Assembly: GCA_913047725.1 (NCBI GenBank)
Contig: CAJWTH010000002.1
Coordinates: 1-59,919 of the forward strand
Source of the DNA: an uncultured Planktomarina sp.
GTDB lineage: Bacteria; Pseudomonadota; Alphaproteobacteria; Rhodobacterales; Rhodobacteraceae
Reading direction: 5' to 3'
Length of the DNA: 59,919 bases
Shown: piece after piece, positions 58,902 to 59,919 of the stretch
Layout: every line of letters starts with the position of its first letter
How positions within the stretch are numbered: the first letter of the stretch is position 1
Program-made: the position numbers and the translations under genes
The notes under the pieces: model-generated
The model's database searches: none
The model's input: only the letters and a program-made list of their open reading frames with translations
Told to the model about the DNA's origin: nothing

Positions 58902-59627
58902 CTAAAATGTTTGGTTAAATGTTTTGCGCAAAACTAAGTCGAGATCTTTAAATGAGGTTTGTTGGCCCAAATCAGCAAATGACGTAATTCCAAAGCCATC
59001 GATCCCACATGGCACAATTCCAGAAAAATGGTTTAGATTTGGGTTTAGGTTTATAGAGATGCCGTGGTAACTTACCCACTTGCGTAGTCGAATTCCAATC
59101 GCTGCGATTTTTTGTTCGACTACAGTTCCTTGGGAGCTGAACGGCAGATCTGGGCGTTGTACCCAAACACCAACGCGTCCTTCGCGGACCTCACCTGCTA
59201 CGTTGAATTCAGCGAGAGTATGAATAATCCAATCCTCAAGGTCCTTGATAAATTTTCTTATATCATGACCGCGTTTTGCTACATCTAGCATTACATAGAT
59301 AATTCTTTGGCCTGGCCCGTGATATGTATATTGCCCGCCACGTTGTGTTTTGAAAACTGGAAATCGATCTGGTTCGATAAGATCTTTTACGTCAGAGCTT
59401 GTGCCAGCTGTGTACATGGGCGGGTGTTCAAGAAGCCACACTACCTCTGGGGCGCTCCCCGATATGATCTGCGCTATGCGGGTATCCATCCATTCAACAG
59501 CACTCTCATAGGCTACAGGTTGCGCAGATACTTTCCATTCCACTTCGCCAGAAGTTCTATCTTGCAGCATCATTTTCAAATACAGCCCTTGAGTCCATTT
59601 AACCGTTTCTATATGCGCCCTTAACAA
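58902..59627 (-). CDS. lipB: lipoyl(octanoyl) transferase
   Basis: [50 protein letters not shown]. Exact start uncertain. Confidence 0.93.
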
Positions 59628-59639
59628 TGCCTATGGCAA

Positions 59640-59726
59640 GCGGTCGTGGCGGAATTGGTAGACGCGCAGCGTTGAGGTCGCTGTGAGGTAACACTCGTGC
59701 GGGTTCGAGTCCCGCCGACCGCACCA
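59640..59726 (+). tRNA. tRNA-Leu(GAG)
   Basis: Acceptor stem GCGGTCG/CGACCGC, anticodon arm CAGCG-TTGAGGT-CGCTG, long variable arm, GGTTCGAGTCC T-loop and encoded CCA. Confidence 0.95.
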
Positions 59727-59783
59727 CAACTTCAAGATAACTTATTGAAATTCCTTCGAGATTAACCATCGAGGGGGACCGTC

Positions 59784-59919
59784 GTGTCACACATTCAGTA
59801 CACATTATGTAGATCAGGCAGATATTATTATAATCGTCGTGTGCCTAAACACGCAGTTCATTCATATGGATCCTTTATAAGATTAGCACTGTCTAAAGAT
59901 CCTGTTGAGGCTGCAGCTT
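59784..59919 (+). CDS. partial tyrosine-recombinase/phage integrase-like protein (N-terminus), runs off window
   Basis: GTG start gives VSHIQYTLCRSGRYYYNRRVPKHAVHSYGSFIRLALSKDPVEAAA with no stop to the edge; matches the integrase N-terminal RRG.YYYRRRVP pattern; lies just downstream of tRNA-Leu. Absent from the ORF track. Confidence 0.75.
   Translation, partial: MSHIQYTLCRSGRYYYNRRVPKHAVHSYGSFIRLALSKDPVEAAA

Follow-up and report, generated by a model that had tools for sequence, protein, structure and literature searches.

The right-hand end of the window, by which we mean the whole 59,919-nucleotide stretch analysed here from an uncultured Planktomarina sp., is very probably the left junction of a tRNA-Leu(GAG)-targeting integrative element, and the host integrase gene would be complete beyond the point at which the contig breaks. 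The tRNA and the start of the integrase are present in the window, and complete islands, an empty site and a spread that is independent of the flanking DNA are found among relatives in a comparison set of 20 genomes of one genus (the host and 19 others). The element is a new example of a tRNA-targeted island, an element kind that is already known and that has a well-known mechanism.

Organization of the left junction

Contig C2 has a length of 59919 bases, so that the window edge coincides with its true end, 193 bp past the tRNA. The host genome assembly is 2.13 Mb in 203 contigs and 86% complete, and a search among its other contigs for an overlap with the end of C2 found none. The junction is composed of the following features.

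58902..59627, strand -: LplA/LipB-type lipoyl ligase gene (PF21948, 3.1e-35), a conserved chromosomal neighbour outside the element, with the same neighbour in congeners
59640..59726, strand +: tRNA-Leu(GAG), the intact target gene and left end of the element (ARAGORN, one tRNA found)
59666..59726, strand +: putative attachment core, from the anticodon arm to the tRNA 3' end, the section of the tRNA that recurs at the right-hand boundary of complete congener islands (from the 60-bp repeats of three congeners and the decayed 57-nt copy on G000:C120)
59771..59778, strand +: ribosome-binding-like sequence GAGGGGGA, 5 nt ahead of the GTG
59784..59919, strand +: 5' end of a DUF6538-type tyrosine recombinase gene, 45 codons, truncated by the contig end

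The best-matching relatives of the lipB-type neighbour gene are in Planktomarina MAGs, at 92% and 79% identity, which marks the host as a Planktomarina-like Roseobacter. On the other side of the tRNA, a GTG-initiated frame (59784-59918, 45 codons) begins after a gap of 57 bp, runs on the same strand and is open to the edge. A preliminary description of this DNA had pointed out this unlisted frame and its co-directional position next to tRNA-Leu(GAG); the translation is exactly as given there, and ARAGORN places the tRNA at 59640-59726 on the plus strand.

An open frame of 45 codons is expected by chance at the local base composition with a probability of about 7%, so that openness alone is weak evidence for a gene. 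We consider the frame a real coding sequence because of its weak match to DUF6538 (PF20172, E=3.2e-5), its homologues in 9 of the 19 other genomes of the genus (eight strong and a ninth, in G003, marginal at E=0.004) and a pS far above pN in comparisons with three distant congeners (0.59-0.75 and 0.13-0.16, respectively). Judged by these comparisons, the frame is a conserved coding sequence under purifying selection.

The frame encodes the start of a tyrosine recombinase

Over 44 residues the piece in the window shares 70% identity with a protein of G018; its identity to one of G014 is 72%. In both of these congeners the homologous frame is complete, encodes 379 aa and is located at the same tRNA. 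The complete homologue matches Phage_integrase (PF00589, 1.1e-17), together with the DUF6538 domain, and the phrog_1 integrase family (1.7e-38); the G014 and G018 proteins carry the catalytic motifs GCR, HSLRH (HxLRH), GGW and NYGHGY. The likeness to tyrosine-recombinase N-termini that had been suggested earlier is thus borne out by identity to complete congener recombinases. The accompanying expectation of an R..HxxR..Y catalytic domain holds for the full-length congener homologues; in the host this domain would lie beyond the contig end. The domain combination corresponds to the DUF6538-containing tyrosine recombinases (PF20172 plus PF00589), the N-terminus in the window matching PF20172 and the full homologue having both domains, though neither the window piece (23.9 bits) nor the complete congener homologue (22.2 bits) reaches the curated PF20172 threshold of 27. 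In Ruegeria sp. TM1040, one replicon encodes a distant relative that is annotated as a DUF6538 protein.

Within the host genome, the only close match to the complete homologue is the 45-codon piece itself, and the catalytic domain of the host copy is absent from the assembly. PF00589 genes on host contigs C73 and C36 were considered as the missing C-terminus and not adopted; neither frame reaches a stop codon, and the C73 gene shares just 23% identity with the complete homologue. Searches of phage and plasmid sequences with the 45 aa gave no match, and among the papers searched none dealt with DUF6538 or with tRNA islands of Planktomarina.

Filled, empty and decayed sites in congeners

In G013, G014 and G018 an intact tRNA-Leu is followed by the integrase, and 7-8 kb further on a 60-bp copy of the tRNA closes the island. 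These far-end repeats correspond to tRNA positions 28-87, reaching the 3' end, and are 90-93% identical to the tRNA. G019, a genome in a single contig, has immediately behind its tRNA the same sequence that lies beyond the right-hand copy in G013 (95% identity over 2.0 kb); G019 is therefore an empty site, and G013, G014 and G018 are filled. G017, where tRNA-Leu and tRNA-Arg are just 154 bp apart, was also counted as empty, and relics are found in G001, G002 and G015. A different integrase is located at the same tRNA in G003 and on a second contig of G002. The tRNA-Leu site is a repeatedly used hotspot that holds the same element, another integrase, decayed integrases or nothing. The complete islands of relatives, their repeats of about 60 bp and the empty site support the earlier proposal that the window ends in the left end of a tRNA-targeted integrative element; the direct repeat of the tRNA 3' end that was expected with it is present at the far end in three congeners, and the host has only a decayed fragment of it on another contig.

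A tyrosine recombinase would have recombined the attachment site of the element with the tRNA gene across the stretch from the anticodon arm to the 3' end. The element would have brought a replacement 3' part, leaving the tRNA intact, and the displaced 3' part would have come to lie at the far end of the element.

The nearest known counterparts are the Islander tRNA-targeted islands with an anticodon-type site (PMC4383910). The host shares with them an intact tRNA at the integrase-side end. Of the adjacent tyrosine integrase expected inside such an island, the host shows the N-terminal 45 codons, cut by the contig end, and G014 and G018 have the complete gene. The fragment of the tRNA 3' part that these islands carry at their far end, in the same orientation as the tRNA, is seen in three congeners as a repeat that starts in the anticodon arm; the candidate far end of the host is decayed and on another contig. 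Strain-variable presence, which we used as an extra criterion and which is not an Islander rule, is evident from the filled, empty and relic sites above. A more generic resemblance is seen to the tycheposons, described in Prochlorococcus and reported in Methylophilaceae (PMC10872708), with which the element has in common a tRNA at its border, a tyrosine recombinase, cargo and a marine streamlined host.

A candidate right end in the host

On host contig C120, which is 5.5 kb long, the 3' part of tRNA-Leu is present as a decayed copy of 57 nt (86% identity); the contig has no complete tRNA-Leu. The fragment breaks in the anticodon arm, like the right ends of the congener islands, and is the sole right-end candidate in the host genome, on a contig separate from C2. 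It is flanked on one side by a TPR-methyltransferase and on the other by a 101-aa gene, an EamA-like transporter (putative, named from sequence), glutamine synthetase and tRNA-Arg(TCT). Contig G004:C168 is collinear with C120 and ends in an intact 55-nt tRNA-Leu copy. The fragment is likely the old right boundary of the host island, which it would close now or would have closed once.

The stretch between the tRNA-Leu fragment and tRNA-Arg on C120 (glutamine synthetase, EamA-like gene and 101-aa gene; L086, 375-3421) is contiguous only in G000, the host, and G004. It may represent an older insertion at the same site; a second tRNA-Leu fragment was looked for near the tRNA-Arg, and none was seen.

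Movement and target preference

The 193 bp between the tRNA and the contig end have a 97.9% identical counterpart on G016:C19, located downstream of a tRNA-Leu(CAG) gene, whereas the lipB/cox flank shared by the host and G016 is only 84.6% identical; the element therefore moves independently of its flanks. The first 74 bp after the tRNA are identical to G004, the flank of which is 92% identical. The G016:C19 copy (L143:9913-10191) and the second G016 copy both break at contig ends.

We tabulated 18 related loci from the genus and from 298 family genomes, requiring the integrase start to be in view and a tRNA to be nearby. The adjacent tRNA is tRNA-Leu (GAG, CAG or TAG) in 16 loci, tRNA-Arg in one and tRNA-Met in one; the gap between tRNA and integrase is 56-59 bp in 17 of the 18, and all 18 integrases are co-directional with the tRNA. 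Outside this table, some related integrases have no tRNA in the fetched flank or are located at tRNA-Asn, -Ser or -Thr.

Alternative explanations

The host copy could be a relic, because related integrases at the same site are broken by stops in G001, G002, G015 and G013, in the last case within a filled island. The frame would then be the surviving stub of a decayed integrase that stayed at the tRNA once the island had been lost or broken, with no active element left. G015, with a fragment of an integrase and only 441 bp between tRNA-Leu and tRNA-Arg, offers a picture of such an outcome, and the tRNA fragment at the candidate right end of the host is itself decayed. We nevertheless consider this explanation unlikely: the visible host frame is intact with few changes from its nearest copies, the G016 copy has no stop over 173 codons, as far as its own contig end, and the near identity of the host DNA to the copy at another tRNA points to recent movement.

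A prophage nature of the element, in place of a non-phage island, appears improbable. The integrase family does match phage integrases (phrog_1), and a phage of the RCA lineage, CRP-3, integrates at tRNA-Met(CAT) (PMC6918029). However, a close relative of this integrase is in no phage record (a viral contig scan with the complete homologue and a phage search were both empty), the complete congener islands are 7-8 kb long, and none of the open frames tested in them was recognised as a structural gene. A chance open frame or an assembly chimera, to which the 7% expectation and the position at a contig end could point, is already contradicted by the purifying selection on the frame and by the order lipB, tRNA-Leu, integrase, which recurs in other assemblies (G004, G006, G016 and others), and can be dismissed.

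Cargo of the congener islands

Among the cargo of the complete congener islands are an M10 protease, a protein with Sel1 repeats and a polymerase-like protein. The protease, a serralysin-like M10 metalloprotease with RTX repeats (L136:5065-6840, strand +), is found in the 7-8 kb islands of G013, G014 and G018.

The phrog_4756 family (490-524 aa, no named function) recurs in tRNA-anchored elements of Rhodobacteraceae.

L136:6856-8325, L135:6121-7590 and L137:8632-10203, strand -: phrog_4756 members, found also in L274, L275, L278, L269, L272 and others

Of the 298 family genomes, 37 hold a phrog_4756 protein. By raw count, most of the 36 loci inspected have a tyrosine recombinase no more than about 6 kb away, and this recombinase often follows immediately on a tRNA, of one kind or another. 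Searched against Pfam and NCBIfam, the protein matched no family above cut-off. In an AlphaFold model of modest confidence, the nearest solved folds are family-A DNA polymerases (E about 1e-3, TM 0.3); the DFSxLH and VHDS motifs resemble polymerase motifs A and C. Phages of Vibrio, Aeromonas and Pseudoalteromonas with genomes of 110-145 kb encode distant relatives, annotated as hypothetical proteins. A search of the host assembly, which is incomplete, did not find the protein. It is improbable that the host element is one of an undescribed group of small Rhodobacteraceae elements that are anchored at tRNAs and encode a stand-alone polymerase-A-like protein of their own (phrog_4756) for replication of the element after excision.

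Significance of the junction

Reading the end of C2 as the left junction of an integrative element at tRNA-Leu(GAG) defines one boundary of a variable region in a lineage of marine Roseobacter, and for annotation the end of this contig would be recorded as a mobile element's left junction. A single tRNA-Leu gene is a repeatedly used landing site in this lineage, found in whole, decayed and empty states across the 20 genomes of the genus.
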